Shown here: positions 4,512 to 35,950 of the stretch, piece by piece
Layout of the letters: the number at the start of each line of letters is the position of its first letter
Position numbering within the stretch: position 1 is the stretch's first letter
Assembly: GCA_018433765.1 (NCBI GenBank)
Contig: JAHDQO010000012.1
Location: forward strand, 1 to 64,000
Direction of reading: 5' to 3'
DNA from: Tissierellales bacterium
GTDB lineage: Bacteria > Bacillota > Clostridia > Tissierellales > Sedimentibacteraceae
Length of the DNA: 64,000 nt
Made by a program: the position numbers and the translations under genes
The notes under the pieces: generated by a model
What the model was told of the DNA's origin: nothing
The model's database searches: none
Seen by the model: only the letters and a program-made list of their open reading frames with translations

Positions 4512-5774
4512 ATGGGTATGACAATGACACAAAAAATTCTTGCGGGACATGCGGGATTAGAAAAAGTTAAAGCAGGACAGTTTATTGAAATAGATTTAGA
4601 TGTGGTATTAGGTAACGATATAACAACACCTGTTGCAATAAAAGAGTTTGAAAAAATGGGTGCAGATGATGTATTTGATAAAGAAAAAGTAATTGTTGTT
4701 TTTGATCACTTTACACCAAATAAAGATATAAAAACTGCTGAGCAGTGCAGATTTACAAGAGAATTTTGTAATAAAAAAGGTATAGTCAATTTTTTTGACG
4801 TAGGAGAAATGGGTATAGAGCATGCACTTCTACCGGAAAAGGGCATTGTTGCTTCAGGAGATACGGTAATAGGAGCAGATTCTCATACCTGCACGTATGG
4901 AGCATTAGGGGCATTTTCTACTGGTATAGGAAGTACTGACATGGCTGCTGGTATGGCTAGAGGAAAAGCTTGGGTAAGAGTACCGTCAGCAGTAAAAGTT
5001 GAAATAACTGGACAACCTGCTAAATGGGTGAGTGGAAAAGATGTGATACTGCACATAATAGGTAGAATAGGTGTAGACGGAGCATTATATAAATCAATGG
5101 AATTTACAGGAGATGGAATAAAAAACTTATCTATGGATGATAGATTTACTATATCTAATATGGCTATAGAAGCAGGAGCTAAGAATGGGATTTTTCCAGT
5201 AGATGAAAAGACAACAGAATATTTAAAAGAACATACAAAAAAAGAATATAAAACATATAAAGCTGATGAAGATGCACAATACGATGAAATTATTAAAGTG
5301 GATTTAAGCAGATTAAGACCTACTGTTTCTTTTCCGCATTTACCTGAGAACACAAAAACAATAGATGAGGTAGAAGATATAAGAATTGATCAAGTAGTTA
5401 TAGGTTCTTGCACTAATGGTAGAATAGAAGATATGAGAAGAGCAGCAAATGTGTTTAAAGGAAGAAAAGTGAACAAAAAAGTTAGAACTATAATAATACC
5501 AGCTACACAAAAAATATATCTTGAATGTATACGAGAAGGTCTTATGGAAATATTTGTAGAAGCAGGAGCTGCTGTAAGTACACCAACGTGTGGACCTTGC
5601 TTGGGCGGACATATGGGTATACTTGGAAAAGGAGAAAGAGCAGTTGCTACAACGAATAGAAACTTTGTAGGCAGAATGGGGCATACTGAATCCGAAGTAT
5701 ACTTAGCAAGTCCTGAAGTAGCTGCTGCATCAGCAATAACAGGAAAAATATCATCACCAGAATCTTTAAAATAA
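4512..5774 (+). CDS. leuC: 3-isopropylmalate dehydratase large subunit
   Basis: With LeuD it isomerises 2-isopropylmalate to 3-isopropylmalate through a [4Fe-4S] cluster. The protein is 420 residues, the short form found in clostridia and archaea. Cluster ligands are visible in VIGSCTNGR (about residue 298) and TCGPCLGG (about residues 358-365), with the aconitase-type motif [21 protein letters not shown] start at ATG 4512 because a longer TTG start at 4497 would translate through the GGAGG ribosome site. It is the second gene of the leucine operon, separated from leuA by repeat-bearing DNA. Confidence 0.95.
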
Positions 5775-30832: not shown

Positions 30833-32542
30833 ATATTAGTAGTATTAAGTAAACTTATAGGCAATTTTGGTTATATTTTAATATTAATTTTCTTCTTGTC
30901 GAGAGGAAATTTCTTTAAGCAGTTTTTACAGAAAGAAAAATTGAAATTAAAAGAAGAAGTAATTTTATCTATATTATTTGCTTGCTTAGGTATTTTTGGA
31001 ACATACTCAGGTGTTTTATATGAAGGAGCTATAGCAAATATTAGAAATATGTCAATCATGTTTGGAGGTATGTTGTGCGGACCTGTAGTTGGGATATCAT
31101 CTGGTCTTATTGCTGGTATTCATAGATTTGTAATTGATATTGGAGGAATTACAGCATTACCTTGTGGTATATCTACTGTCTTAGGTGGAATACTTTCAGC
31201 ATATTTATATAAGATTTCAGATGTAAAAAACAGATGGGTCTATGCAATGTTTGGAGCAATGGTTATAGAGAATTTAAGCTTTGGACTTATGTTAATCATA
31301 TCAAAACCGTTTGAAACTGCTGTTGCAATACTCAAAGCTGTATATATTCCAATGGTATTAATTAATGGTATTGGAGCTGCTGTGCTGATGTCGATTACAG
31401 AAAATATTTTTAAAGAGAAAGAACAAATAGCAGCAAAGCAATCAAAACTTGCACTTGAAATAGCTGATAGAACTTTACCATATTTCATGAGTACTGATGA
31501 AATATCGTTAGGAAAAATTTGCAGTATAATAAAAGAATCTGTTGAGGCAAAAGCGGTTGTTATTTCAAATACAAACAGAATAATTGCTGCTTCTAAAGAA
31601 ATTGAATTTGATATAAAAGAATATGGAACCAATATTGTTAAGGAACTTGTTAATTTTTCTACCAGTAATGATGTAATTACAATAACGAATAAGAATAAAG
31701 GTACTTTATTTGATAAAATTATATATAAGTCAGCAATAGCATCACCTTTATATGAAAATGATGAGATTATAGGAATTTTGATTTTCTTTTATTATTCAAG
31801 AAATGCTTTTAGGTATGATGAAAAATCACTTATTAAAAGCTTGTCTAAACTTATTTCAACACAATTAGAACTAATAAAAATTAATAATTTAAAGAAGATG
31901 GCTGCAAAAGCAGAAGTAAGAGCTTTACAAATGCAGATAAATCCTCATTTCTTATTCAATGTATTAAATACAATAGTTTCATTCATAAGGATTAATCCCG
32001 ATAAAGCTAGAGAATTAATTATAGACTTTTCTAAATATCTAAGATATAACACAGAAAATAAAGAAGAATTTATAGACTTAAAAGAAGAAATTAAGCATGT
32101 AAAATCATATATAAAAATAGAACAAGCAAGATTTGGTGAAAAAATAAAAACAAAATTTATCATAGATGAGAATATTAATGTTAAAATACCAATGCTTTCA
32201 ATACAGCCTTTAGTAGAAAATTCAATTCAGCATGGAATGAAGGACATGAAAAATGGAATTTCTGTAATTGTAAAAGTGTATAAAATGCAGAATATGACGA
32301 AAATAGTGATAGAGGATGACGGCGTAGGTATTGATGAAAATGTAATTCAAAAAATATATAATGATACTATAGAAAATAATAAAGTAGGACTTATTAATGT
32401 TCATCAAAGACTTATATTGTTATATGGAAGTGGCTTAAAAATAGAAAGGCTTGTAAAGGGAACAAGAATACATTTTTTAATAAATGAAGAAAGAGCAAAG
32501 AAAATTAATAAAGGAGAAAAGTATGAATTGTATAATAATTGA
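30833..32542 (+). CDS. LytS-family sensor histidine kinase, apparent ATA start
   Basis: A membrane sensor with an N-terminal 5TM-LYT receptor domain, a GAF-like region (about residues 200-350) and a LytS-type kinase core INPHFLFNVLNTIVSFI with the phospho-accepting His near residue 373, then an ATPase domain with VIEDDGVGI. The first transmembrane helix (LVVLSKLIGNFGYILILIFF) is encoded upstream of the first ATG/GTG/TTG in frame (TTG 30896). The only possible starts after the strong AAGGAGGTGAGG site are ATT 30830 or ATA 30833, since TGA at 30824 closes the frame. It pairs with the overlapping response regulator and probably controls the downstream cstA operon. Confidence 0.85.
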   Translation: MLVVLSKLIGNFGYILILIFFLSRGNFFKQFLQKEKLKLKEEVILSILFACLGIFGTYSGVLYEGAIANIRNMSIMFGGMLCGPVVGISSGLIAGIHRFVIDIGGITALPCGISTVLGGILSAYLYKISDVKNRWVYAMFGAMVIENLSFGLMLIISKPFETAVAILKAVYIPMVLINGIGAAVLMSITENIFKEKEQIAAKQSKLALEIADRTLPYFMSTDEISLGKICSIIKESVEAKAVVISNTNRIIAASKEIEFDIKEYGTNIVKELVNFSTSNDVITITNKNKGTLFDKIIYKSAIASPLYENDEIIGILIFFYYSRNAFRYDEKSLIKSLSKLISTQLELIKINNLKKMAAKAEVRALQMQINPHFLFNVLNTIVSFIRINPDKARELIIDFSKYLRYNTENKEEFIDLKEEIKHVKSYIKIEQARFGEKIKTKFIIDENINVKIPMLSIQPLVENSIQHGMKDMKNGISVIVKVYKMQNMTKIVIEDDGVGIDENVIQKIYNDTIENNKVGLINVHQRLILLYGSGLKIERLVKGTRIHFLINEERAKKINKGEKYELYNN

Positions 32543-33230
32543 TGATGAGTATCCTTCAAGAGAAGAATTAAAATTTTTAATAAACAAATACAGCAGTATA
32601 AATATATTAAGTGAATTTGATAATCCGATTGATGCATTAAAATATATTGAAAGCTGTCGACAGTTGGATATAATTTTTCTTGATATTAATATGCCTAATT
32701 TAGATGGAATGACTTTAGCAAAAATAATTTCTAAATTTGAAAATAAACCTAAAATAGTTTTTGTAACAGCGTATAAGGAATATGCATTAGAAGCATTTGA
32801 AATTGAAGCAGAAGATTATATATTAAAGCCATATTCTGAAGATAGAATGAAGAAACTTTTACGTAAATTAGACATGCAAGATGAAAACGTATGTCATCAT
32901 AATAAAATAACCTTTTCAAATGGTGAAAAAATTTTAGTTGTAGATAAAAATGATATATCCTGCATAAAGGCTTCAGATAGAAAAGTTATAATTTGTTATA
33001 ATCATAAGTTATTTGATTCAAAGTCTAAATTTTGTGATTTAATTAAAGATTTACTTAATTATGACAACTTCTTTCAAACACATCGATCGTATGTGGTAAA
33101 TTTGGATAAAATAACTGAAATAGATCACTGGTTTAATAATACGTATTTGCTTGTACTAAGAGGAGTTAAAGAAAAAATACCAGTTAGTAGAAACTATATA
33201 AAAGAGTTTAGAAAAAGAATGAAAATATAA
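32523..33230 (+). CDS. LytTR-type response regulator
   Basis: A 235-residue regulator with a receiver domain (NCIIIDDEYPSREEL; phospho-acceptor Asp in FLDINMPNLDGM at about residue 54; KP motif in YILKPYSED) and a C-terminal LytTR DNA-binding domain (residues about 135-235, with FFQTHRSYVVNLDKI and KIPVSRNYIKEF). I start at ATG 32523 behind AAAGGAGAAAAGT, overlapping the kinase gene by 20 bp. LytTR proteins bind direct repeats; a good candidate lies at 33347-33388 before the next operon. Confidence 0.93.
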   Translation: MNCIIIDDEYPSREELKFLINKYSSINILSEFDNPIDALKYIESCRQLDIIFLDINMPNLDGMTLAKIISKFENKPKIVFVTAYKEYALEAFEIEAEDYILKPYSEDRMKKLLRKLDMQDENVCHHNKITFSNGEKILVVDKNDISCIKASDRKVIICYNHKLFDSKSKFCDLIKDLLNYDNFFQTHRSYVVNLDKITEIDHWFNNTYLLVLRGVKEKIPVSRNYIKEFRKRMKI

Positions 33231-33417: not shown

Positions 33418-33457
33418 ACGTAAAATTAAAATAATATTAATAAATTAGGTGATACTA

Positions 33458-33952
33458 ATGAATTTTATGCAGTATAAGAATAAAATTATTGATAATTTAA
33501 AGTACAATTTTGATATTAATGAAGGTTGCAATTATGGAGGAGCAGTATTTGACGTTCAAGCAGAATCACATATTAGGAATGAAAAATATGTTGCAACTAA
33601 AAAAGCTGTTATATATGCTTTTGAAAATAATGAAGAGTGTTTAATTAAACATCTCCATAATACAAGTATAAGTCAAATAGATAAAATCATTGAAGTAACA
33701 AAGGAAAGTATATTAAAAAGCATACAACTCACCGATGATCATATGTCTACTACTATTACCTTGATCTTAGTTTCTGAAACTTCAATTGATAAACAAATCG
33801 CAAAACATGTTAAGAGATATAAATATCAAAAGTCTTTTAAATTTGGATTGAAAGGCTGGATAGTATTTAGGATAGTATTAGTTGATTTAGACAATGAAGA
33901 AGTAATTTGCAGTAAAGAAGCTAAAAAGGTTGGTAAATTTTATCAGCCTTAA
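33458..33952 (+). CDS. Hypothetical protein upstream of cstA-like gene
   Basis: I do not recognise this 164-residue protein. It is soluble, without signal peptide or membrane spans, and rich in Lys, Ile and Asn, with phrases such as NEGCNYGGAVFDVQAESHIRN and KFGLKGWIVFRIVLVDL. I start at ATG 33458, preceded by TTAGGTGATACT; a GTG nine bases earlier is an alternative. It is the first gene behind the proposed LytTR operator and 51 bp before the transporter, so it may be coregulated with it and possibly assist it. Confidence 0.65.
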   Translation: MNFMQYKNKIIDNLKYNFDINEGCNYGGAVFDVQAESHIRNEKYVATKKAVIYAFENNEECLIKHLHNTSISQIDKIIEVTKESILKSIQLTDDHMSTTITLILVSETSIDKQIAKHVKRYKYQKSFKFGLKGWIVFRIVLVDLDNEEVICSKEAKKVGKFYQP

Positions 33953-34003: not shown

Positions 34004-35602
34004 TTGGCATTATCATTAATATTAATAGCAATTGTAATTTTCTTAATAGCCTATGTTACTTATGGTGCTTGGTTGTGCAAAAAATGGGGAATAGACCCTA
34101 AAAGAAAAACTCCAGCACATACAATGAGTGATGGAGTTGACTATGTACCAGCAAAGACTCCTGTTCTTTTAGGCCATCATTTTGCATCCATAGCAGGAGC
34201 AGGGCCAATAGTTGGACCTATTGCAGCTGCAATGTTTGGATGGCTTCCAGTATTCTTGTGGATAATTATAGGTAGTATATTTGTTGGCGGTGTTCATGAT
34301 ATGGGAGCATTATTTGCATCTATTAGACATGGTGGCAAATCTTTAGGCAATATTATTGATGAGAACTTAGGCAAGTCAGGTAAAAAATTATTTTCAATAT
34401 TTGCTTGGTTAACTCTCTTATTAGTTGTAGCAGCTTTTACAAATATAGTAGCTGGAACTTTTGTAGCAACTCCGGCAGTTGCAACTACTTCAATACTATT
34501 TATAATAATAGCAATAGTATTTGGATTAGCAGTTAATAGAGGCGGTGTGGGACTAATACCTGCAACTATAGTTGGTGTAGCACTTATAGCATTAAGCATA
34601 TGGTTAGGACTTAGATTTCCTTTAGTACTGTCAATGAATACTTGGATAGTAATTATACTAGTTTATATATTTATAGCATCAACTGCTCCAGTTTGGATTT
34701 TACTTCAGCCAAGAGATTATCTTAATTCATACTTATTATATGCAATGCTAGCGGGTGCAATATTAGGATTAATAATGTACAGACCTAATATAGTAGCTCC
34801 AGCGGTTGTAGGATTTAATGTAAATGGAAGTTATATGTTCCCAATATTGTTTGTAACGGTTGCATGTGGTGCTATTTCAGGATTCCATTCACTTGTAAGT
34901 TCAGGAACAACAGCAAAGCAATTGAATAGTGAAAAAGATGTTAAACCAATAGGATATGGTTCAATGCTTATAGAAGGTATACTTGCTGTAGTAGCTTTGA
35001 TAACAGCAGTGTATATAGGAGCAGATAAATTAGGTTCACTTGGCAGCGCAACAAATGTATTTGCAGATGGTGTAGGTACTTTTATGACAGCTATAGGAAT
35101 AAATAAAGATATAGGAACTACATTTATTGCACTATCAATATCAGCATTTGCTTTAACAAGTCTCGACACAGCTACAAGATTAGGAAGATTTGTTTTCCAA
35201 GAGTATTTTGAAGATAAAAATAAAGATGTTCAAACTAGTCCTCTTACTAATAGATTTGTGGCAACTGGAATAACAGTAGTTCTTGGTGGCTTATTAACAG
35301 TTGCTGGATACGAAAAAGTATGGCCTATATTTGGTTCAGCAAATCAATTACTAGCAGCTTTAGCTTTATTAACTCTTGCTGTATGGCTTAAAAAAGAAGG
35401 AAAATCAAACAAGATGGCTACTATACCAATGATTTTTATGGTTTGTGTAACATTAGTTGCATTAGCACAGCTAGTTCAAGCAAATATAGTAGCAAGTAAT
35501 TATATTTTAGTATTCTTTGGAGTAGTTTTATTTGTACTTGCTTTAGTATTTATGAAACAATCATATAAAGTTTTATTTAAGAAAGAATCTAAGATACAAT
35601 AA
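34004..35602 (+). CDS. CstA-family transporter (BtsT-like)
   Basis: A 532-residue membrane protein with about 13 spans. It carries the CstA signature: FASIAGAGPIVGPIAAAMFG (about residues 60-79), PVFLWIIIGSIFVGGVHDMG and FHSLVSSGTTAKQL. The family imports peptides or pyruvate with a cation; the E. coli relative BtsT is a pyruvate transporter under a LytS/LytR-type system (BtsSR). The same pairing here, with a LytTR operator upstream, favours pyruvate or a related nutrient, by inference. It starts at TTG 34004 behind AAGGAGGTAGTTAAA. Confidence 0.9.
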   Translation: MALSLILIAIVIFLIAYVTYGAWLCKKWGIDPKRKTPAHTMSDGVDYVPAKTPVLLGHHFASIAGAGPIVGPIAAAMFGWLPVFLWIIIGSIFVGGVHDMGALFASIRHGGKSLGNIIDENLGKSGKKLFSIFAWLTLLLVVAAFTNIVAGTFVATPAVATTSILFIIIAIVFGLAVNRGGVGLIPATIVGVALIALSIWLGLRFPLVLSMNTWIVIILVYIFIASTAPVWILLQPRDYLNSYLLYAMLAGAILGLIMYRPNIVAPAVVGFNVNGSYMFPILFVTVACGAISGFHSLVSSGTTAKQLNSEKDVKPIGYGSMLIEGILAVVALITAVYIGADKLGSLGSATNVFADGVGTFMTAIGINKDIGTTFIALSISAFALTSLDTATRLGRFVFQEYFEDKNKDVQTSPLTNRFVATGITVVLGGLLTVAGYEKVWPIFGSANQLLAALALLTLAVWLKKEGKSNKMATIPMIFMVCVTLVALAQLVQANIVASNYILVFFGVVLFVLALVFMKQSYKVLFKKESKIQ

Positions 35603-35625
35603 TTTAATAGCAGGTGGTGAATTGA

Positions 35626-35913
35626 ATAAAAGTAGTAATTACAGAAAAAGCAAAAAATTATATAATTAAAAAAGACAATAAAATTGTTACTGTAGATCTA
35701 TTACTAACCAATTCATGAGTAGATGCTGCACTTCCATACGTGTATATGGAAAATCCTAAAGAAGATATCAATAAATACAATAAATTTGAAGTAGATGATA
35801 TAACAGTATATGTTTATAAAGGTGCTAATACTAAAAGAGGTAAAGCTATCATTACTTTAAACAGCTTTCTTTTTATAAAGTCATTAGAAGTTCAAGGAAT
35901 ATCATTAGTTTAA
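35626..35913 (+). CDS. Small selenoprotein, HesB-like CC/Se-motif type; in-frame TGA = Sec
   Basis: A 95-codon gene hidden by an in-frame TGA (35716-35718, codon 31) and an apparent ATA start (35626). An AGGTGGTGA site ends 6 bp upstream, and TGA at 35623 rules out an earlier start. Read through, it gives IKVVITEKAKNYIIKKDNKI near the N-terminus, NS-U-VDAALPYVY around selenocysteine, and KFEVDDITVYVYKGANT later, which resembles small HesB-related selenoproteins of anaerobes. Directly after TGA a 7-bp stem (35732-35738 with 35745-35751) holds loop CGTGTA whose second base is G, 20 nt from TGA, as the bacterial SECIS model requires. Cotranscribed with cstA. Confidence 0.78.
35719..35751 (+). 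promoter_or_regulatory. Bacterial SECIS element
   Basis: TTCCATA (35732-35738) pairs without mismatch to TATGGAA (35745-35751), with loop CGTGTA. The stem starts 13 nt and the loop 20 nt after the TGA codon, within the range known for bSECIS elements that recruit SelB. Confidence 0.7.
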
Positions 35914-35915
35914 TT

Positions 35916-35950
35916 AATTCCACTTTGATTTAATCAAAGTGGAATTTTTT
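35916..35950 (+). terminator. Terminator after the selenoprotein gene
   Basis: AATTCCACTTTGA (35916-35928) pairs perfectly with TCAAAGTGGAATT (35934-35946), followed by TTTT. Its placement two bases after the predicted stop supports a real gene ending at 35913. Confidence 0.9.

Follow-up and report, generated by a model that had tools for sequence, protein, structure and literature searches.

The gene at positions 35626 to 35913 of the window, i.e., the 64,000-nucleotide stretch of Tissierellales bacterium DNA analyzed here, is a well-supported selenoprotein gene of a known, uncharacterized family, NCBIfam NF041239 ("CC/Se motif family (seleno)protein"). Our best overall explanation, in which we have good confidence, is that it would be a working selenoprotein gene, the last of a lytS-lytR-orf167-cstA unit; less surely, with about even chances, its product would act as an accessory protein of CstA. 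The family was already in print as a hypothetical protein; new here are its placement behind cstA, its predicted fold and its start codon. The region contains the following features.

30833..32542, + strand: lytS-like histidine kinase (5TMR-LYT, His_kinase), probable ATA start; the ORF list starts it at TTG 30896
32484..33230, + strand: lytR-like response regulator (Response_reg, LytTR), order conserved in 4 of the 5 nearest loci
33449..33952, + strand: orf167, no Pfam match, conserved before cstA
34004..35602, + strand: cstA (PF02554), directly upstream, ending 23 nt before the ATA
35613..35620, + strand: Shine-Dalgarno (SD)-like GGTGGTGA, 5 nt before the ATA, assigned from the sequence
35626..35913, + strand: CC/Se (seleno)protein gene, 95 codons plus TAA, start ATA; based on translation with TGA as Sec, the NF041239 match and full-length homologues
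35716..35718, + strand: TGA codon 31, very probably read as selenocysteine, aligned with Cys in 5/5 nearest homologues and with TGA in others
35732..35751, + strand: bacterial SECIS-like hairpin, 7 bp, loop CGTGTA; 31.7 bits, E 1.9e-6 with model R1 (see below)
35911..35913, + strand: stop TAA of the CC/Se gene
35916..35946, + strand: intrinsic terminator, stem of 14 pairs followed by a T run, two bases past the stop

The frame, its TGA at codon 31, the hairpin, the ribosome site and the terminator had all been proposed in an earlier sequence-only reading, and all are present in the sequence. Except for this single TGA, the 95 codons contain no stop and no other lesion, and none of them encodes Cys. 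The terminator stem folds with a z of -7.75. The same reading had called the gene overlooked. This holds for the gene itself, of which a mechanical ORF list retains only the 57-aa piece after the TGA, but not for the family, which has been published. With both its TGA and its start codon outside standard ORF rules, the gene is an example of how small selenoproteins stay hidden.

Family membership rests on a match of 64.8 bits to NF041239 (cut-off, 40), covering 90 of the 91 model positions with residues 1 to 91, and no other model came near its cut-off. In a search of the whole genome the gene scored 58 bits and was the sole match. At the motif position, which is a Cys or Sec codon, TGA codon 31 aligned with the Cys or TGA of the other members. 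A Pfam scan of the product gave nothing at E 0.1, and a related-locus search using the single protein as the query recovered no relative. Within the order, NF041239 matched 123 of 249 genomes at E 0.001 or better and 87 of 249 above the cut-off; among the matches listed, many had one in-frame TGA and many had none. An alignment of the window protein with its five nearest homologues was matched by 67 of 398 genomes spread over the phylum. In the literature searched, from which most subscription journals are absent, the accession was encountered in a single paper (PMC13188914), where one row of a table lists a hypothetical protein predicted for Moorella thermoacetica; CstA is absent from the text of that paper.

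Codon 31 is Cys in all five nearest homologues and TGA in other family members, and the only invariant positions of the ten family proteins linked to cstA are A9, P44 and residue 31 (Sec or Cys). The homologues thus align across the TGA, one of the checks proposed by the earlier reading. The window protein shares 10 to 14 of 29 residues with them before the TGA and 19 to 27 of 64 after it, a drop similar to that seen between intact homologues. The other proposed check, a search for the Sec machinery, was likewise positive: selA, selB, selD and a tRNA-Sec with a UCA anticodon are all present above cut-off in the genome, all on the same contig (C16). Taken together, TGA codon 31 is very probably read as selenocysteine, and we consider the case for the Sec reading strong. 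Over the 16 genomes checked, selA was above cut-off in 14; one of the others (G091) had no match and one (G499) had a single match below cut-off, and both carry the Cys form next to cstA. The five nearest genomes possess selA, yet they use Cys at codon 31.

In-frame TGAs were also seen outside the family. The selD of the same genome (L014, contig C16) has one, as does a HesB-like gene on contig C32 (L175, 1441-1743; FGUGG), another selenoprotein candidate. A cstA match in a different genome (G085:C62:64309-65361) contains one as well.

The hairpin TTCCATA-CGTGTA-TATGGAA begins 13 nt after the TGA and has a G at loop position 2, i.e., it lies just 3' of the UGA and carries the loop G, a feature also given in PMC4607533. 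An equally good hairpin within the allowed distance was found at 42 of the 2179 TGAs of the window (both strands, its own TGA counted). In the exact register, at least 7 pairs formed at 4 of the 2178 other TGAs, none with a G in the first two loop positions. Under a null of synonymous codons drawn with window usage, P was 0.087 in any register and 0.098 in its own, and a 50-nt fold at the hairpin reached a z of only -1.11, with 28 of 200 shuffles as good. Because of these values, the window hairpin alone is weak evidence.

Once the family is included, the hairpin is strong evidence. The 78 other Sec members had a mean hairpin score of 13.29, whereas redrawing synonymous codons gave 8.78 on average and no more than 10.45 in any of 200 set means. 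No such excess was seen in the 20 Cys members (6.35 versus 6.05). The hairpin sits on the codons of a conserved P-x-V-x-x-G stretch, and part of its conservation is thus due to the protein. When a single pairing register was imposed on all 72 Sec sequences, 60.6% and 66.1% of the cells were paired, compared to shuffled means of 54.3% and 61.3%; this poor performance is explained by the family using two registers one base apart. We then aligned (A3) 25 of the 72 Sec members, picked for the register of the window and including the badly fitting L066, L150 and L036. Partly as a result of this choice, 96% of the cells paired; 3 of 5 pairs changed on both sides, and slid partners paired in 26 to 46%. 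A covariance model (R1) built from the TGA-hairpins of these 25 members, window excluded, ranked the window TGA-hairpin first over the 64 kb (31.7 bits, part of which reflects coding kinship and the TGA itself; E 1.9e-6; runner-up, 14.1). On 18 further loci (16 Cys or motif-less and 2 Sec), R1 gave 39.3 bits to L150, a training member, and at most 13.7 elsewhere, this value coming from the motif of the Cys member L026; the Sec member L153, which uses the other register, was missed. With the E limit of Rfam raised to 10, no SECIS family was recovered close to the gene, and the best match was weak, antisense over the terminator and below the gathering score. In a Cys member, L068 (gene 4989-5273, minus strand), a 7-bp hairpin at the SECIS position was considered as a relic of Sec use and rejected, since none of the Cys members reached significance when synonymous codons were redrawn.

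The rarity of ATA as a start codon counts against a working gene. ATA 35626 aligns with the Met at which the nearest homologues begin. The codon just before it, at 35623, is another TGA in the same frame, and upstream GTG starts are thus excluded unless this TGA is also read. TTG 35622 was rejected as a start, being in another frame and 1 nt after the SD. Six related genomes of one genus carry the gene in tandem (L067 [5326], L073 and L169 to L172), and an SD-like sequence precedes the start of each second copy, which is ATT in five and ATA in one. Five of these SD-like sequences contain a GTG in frame that could serve as the start instead; that of L170 has none. Within the window unit, lytS also probably starts at ATA 30833 (or ATT 30830), after AAGGAGGTGA, where its homologues have ATG. 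No excess of SD-preceded ATA was seen in the window (ATA, 6; TTA, AAT and AAA, 7 each; ATG, 28). According to PMC13009471, infC, ccpN and citZ of Staphylococcus aureus start with AUA, and noncanonical starts tested in reporters gave about 10 to 30% of AUG activity. These genes behave like the window gene in that AUA follows an SD-like sequence in a Gram-positive bacterium; unlike the start of the window gene, which is inferred, theirs were shown by ribosome profiling and reporters. In view of the second copies, lytS and S. aureus, the ATA need not signify a lost gene and can reflect initiation that is weak and perhaps regulated.

The main rival to the selenoprotein reading is a decaying gene, in which the start has changed from ATG to ATA and the Cys codon to TGA, with no full-length product. 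Both codons are indeed one base away from the state of the nearest homologues, and codon make-up could give rise to the hairpin (P 0.087 to 0.098). However, decay would have left no other lesion in 95 codons, an intact SD-like sequence and terminator, and a sequence whose identity is lost no faster after the TGA. Moreover, the R1 match lies at the right register, the genome has the Sec machinery, and ATT/ATA starts have been kept in the second copies of six related genomes. We consequently regard decay as improbable. That the frame is a noncoding stretch with a random TGA and hairpin is already refuted by homology, through the NF041239 match and the conserved gene order, and chance deserves hardly any weight even though AT-rich DNA of 31% GC makes such hairpins fairly often (42/2179 TGAs).

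The order orf167-cstA-CC/Se gene was found in all five nearest loci; lytS and lytR precede it in four, and in the fifth the contig ends there. Among more distant loci, orf167-cstA-gene recurs in L150 (Sec) and L151 (Cys), while L153 (Sec) has gene-orf167-cstA and L152 (Cys) has lytS-lytR-cstA-gene. In the tree, the window protein groups with its five nearest homologues in a supported clade (99/94), and the Sec/Cys label changes at least 11 times, the Cys label also being given to members whose motif contains no Cys and no TGA (SSES type). The cstA-linked rows are scattered in the best tree, and a single clade of them was not rejected (p-AU 0.08). The link between the CC/Se gene and cstA thus recurs with exchange of Sec and Cys. 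In the literature searched, excluding most subscription journals, no paper links a selenoprotein to CstA or carbon starvation by title or abstract. As for orf167, it has no Pfam match, yet its place before cstA is kept in ten loci that have the CC/Se gene or are near it.

Viewed from cstA, the data speak against a close tie: among the 30 best cstA loci in the order, a single one has a CC/Se gene behind it, and the second cstA of the same genome has no adjoining family gene. In five other loci (L103, L110, L112, L115 and L117), cstA is followed by a different small protein of ~95 aa and then by a P-loop ATPase resembling ArsA (identified by eye). A comparison of 10 linked with 29 unlinked CstA proteins found no residues marking those with a CC/Se neighbor; one Cys (residue 288 of the window CstA) is invariant in all 39.

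We also examined what lies upstream of the family genes in general, 26 loci, mostly places covered by a longer stretch, having been left out beforehand. For 48 of 108 genes, the distance to an upstream ORF of 150 aa or more on the same strand was 130 nt or less; for 54, no ORF on that strand came so close, in some cases owing to a short stretch. By a crude hydropathy rule and crude ORF calls, 28 of the 48 upstream ORFs have at least 5 predicted membrane spans, compared to 16 of 150 neighboring pairs in the same loci. These 28 are not corrected for kinship: CstA accounts for 9 of them, and another 7 resemble a single SDF symporter (two of these 7 were scanned). Nine scanned representatives were SDF symporters (two), BacA, an ABC protein, an MFS protein, YibE/F, CstA, a MASE3/SpoIIE sensor and one protein without a match. 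A CC/Se gene close behind a multipass membrane protein was observed in L034, L069, L051, L071, L076 and L070.

The earlier reading had pointed to small HesB-like selenoproteins of anaerobes. A HesB-like nature is borne out by the predicted fold and by distant kinship of the family, whereas the window protein itself matches neither PF01521 nor TIGR01911, and its family is NF041239. An AlphaFold2 model from six rows (pLDDT, 85.3; pTM, 0.77; least confident around the Sec, with block means of 74 and 70) predicts an IscA/SufA/HesB fold. The first eleven Foldseek matches in the PDB were IscA, SufA and other HesB-type entries, together with a crosslinking-derived model with YneR; the best E was 7.9e-4, to IscA, the one match that passes E 0.001. 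VIA-align to IscA gave a Z of 8.3 over 89 residues (rmsd, 3.5), a value near which, as the tool warns, an arrangement can be a common one; rows 10 and 11 gave Z 4.4 and 2.5. Of 40 family members, 19 matched PF01521 with an E of 1 or lower (the best being 1.2e-6), and 4 matched TIGR01911. A profile of the 40 members found no HesB relative among PDB sequences, so that kinship shows by the fold and by the Pfam matches of members. An hhalign comparison of the family with the HesB-like TGA gene of the same genome (L175) gave an E of 3.1e-7 and placed codon 31 beside its Sec.

Based on these data, we propose the following model. Translation would start at the AUA, probably weakly, and SelB with Sec-tRNA, aided by the downstream hairpin, would read UGA codon 31 as Sec. 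The product would be a cysteine-free protein of 95 residues with a predicted IscA/HesB fold, whose single selenium would sit at the first conserved Cys/Sec position of HesB-type proteins. Since the gene is coupled to cstA in several lineages, an accessory protein of CstA is its most likely function; we judge the chances that it serves CstA to be about even. It would act in the cytosol, in the slot occupied by the unrelated YbdD in E. coli, and the whole unit would be a sensed transporter with a selenium-bearing accessory protein. BtsS, a kinase of the LytS type, is a pyruvate sensor in E. coli (PMC10653868). As the window protein lacks Cys, a Cys-Sec pair within the chain is impossible, and we infer that its only selenium has to interact with a metal, with a substrate or with the thiol of a partner. 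More tentatively, it could act on transport as a metal ligand or a redox switch.

A selenoprotein not tied to CstA, serving general redox or iron-sulfur trafficking of the HesB type and placed behind cstA through shared regulation, is a quite conceivable alternative. The fold is that of iron-sulfur carriers, and most family loci lie away from cstA, only 9 of 108 genes being directly behind it. On the other hand, family members from distant parts of the tree share the cstA link, and the window protein lacks both the C-terminal part of HesB proteins with its further Cys and any Cys of its own. Under our preferred reading as a CstA accessory protein, one may speculate further, although we find this doubtful, that CC/Se proteins are Se- or S-bearing HesB-fold subunits for membrane transporters. 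Unrelated small chalcogen proteins, each in Sec and Cys forms, would then have come to occupy the CstA slot at least two times (YbdD/KCU-star and CC/Se), with the dose held down here by the AUA start. The fold and the recurring neighbor give the NF041239 family a testable role.

Compared to the rest of NF041239, the window gene shares Sec or Cys at the same position and, with the other Sec members, a hairpin after the TGA. It differs by its ATA start and its place directly behind cstA. Having no Cys, it also lacks the CxxU pair given in PMC13188914 and does not belong to the CxxU/CU dithiol-type redox selenoproteins, in which Cys is paired with Sec in the chain. Such a pair is not a condition of the family, since members such as L023 (GGGU) also have no Cys three residues before the Sec.

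A-type iron-sulfur carriers have a C-terminal Cys pair. The window protein shares the predicted fold with IscA, SufA and ErpA (PF01521) and with HesB-like selenoproteins (TIGR01911), and its Sec position with the HesB-like gene of its own genome, but it differs from the carriers in having no Cys codon at all.

A further parallel is the YbdD family. PF04328 (YbdD/DUF466) had no match in the genome, while the control found the E. coli and C. glutamicum proteins. In E. coli, ybdD adjoins cstA, and pyruvate uptake by CstA requires YbdD, with 20% of wild-type uptake left without ybdD (PMC5847655); PMC4607533 gives Sec forms of DUF466 in Epsilonproteobacteria. YbdD and its Sec form KCU-star (NF033934) show no sequence match to the window protein, and Sec is the last residue in KCU-star, whereas it is internal in the window protein. 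Nevertheless, both are small proteins encoded next to cstA that occur in Sec forms, and the fold and the recurring neighbor of the CC/Se family bear on what YbdD does for CstA.
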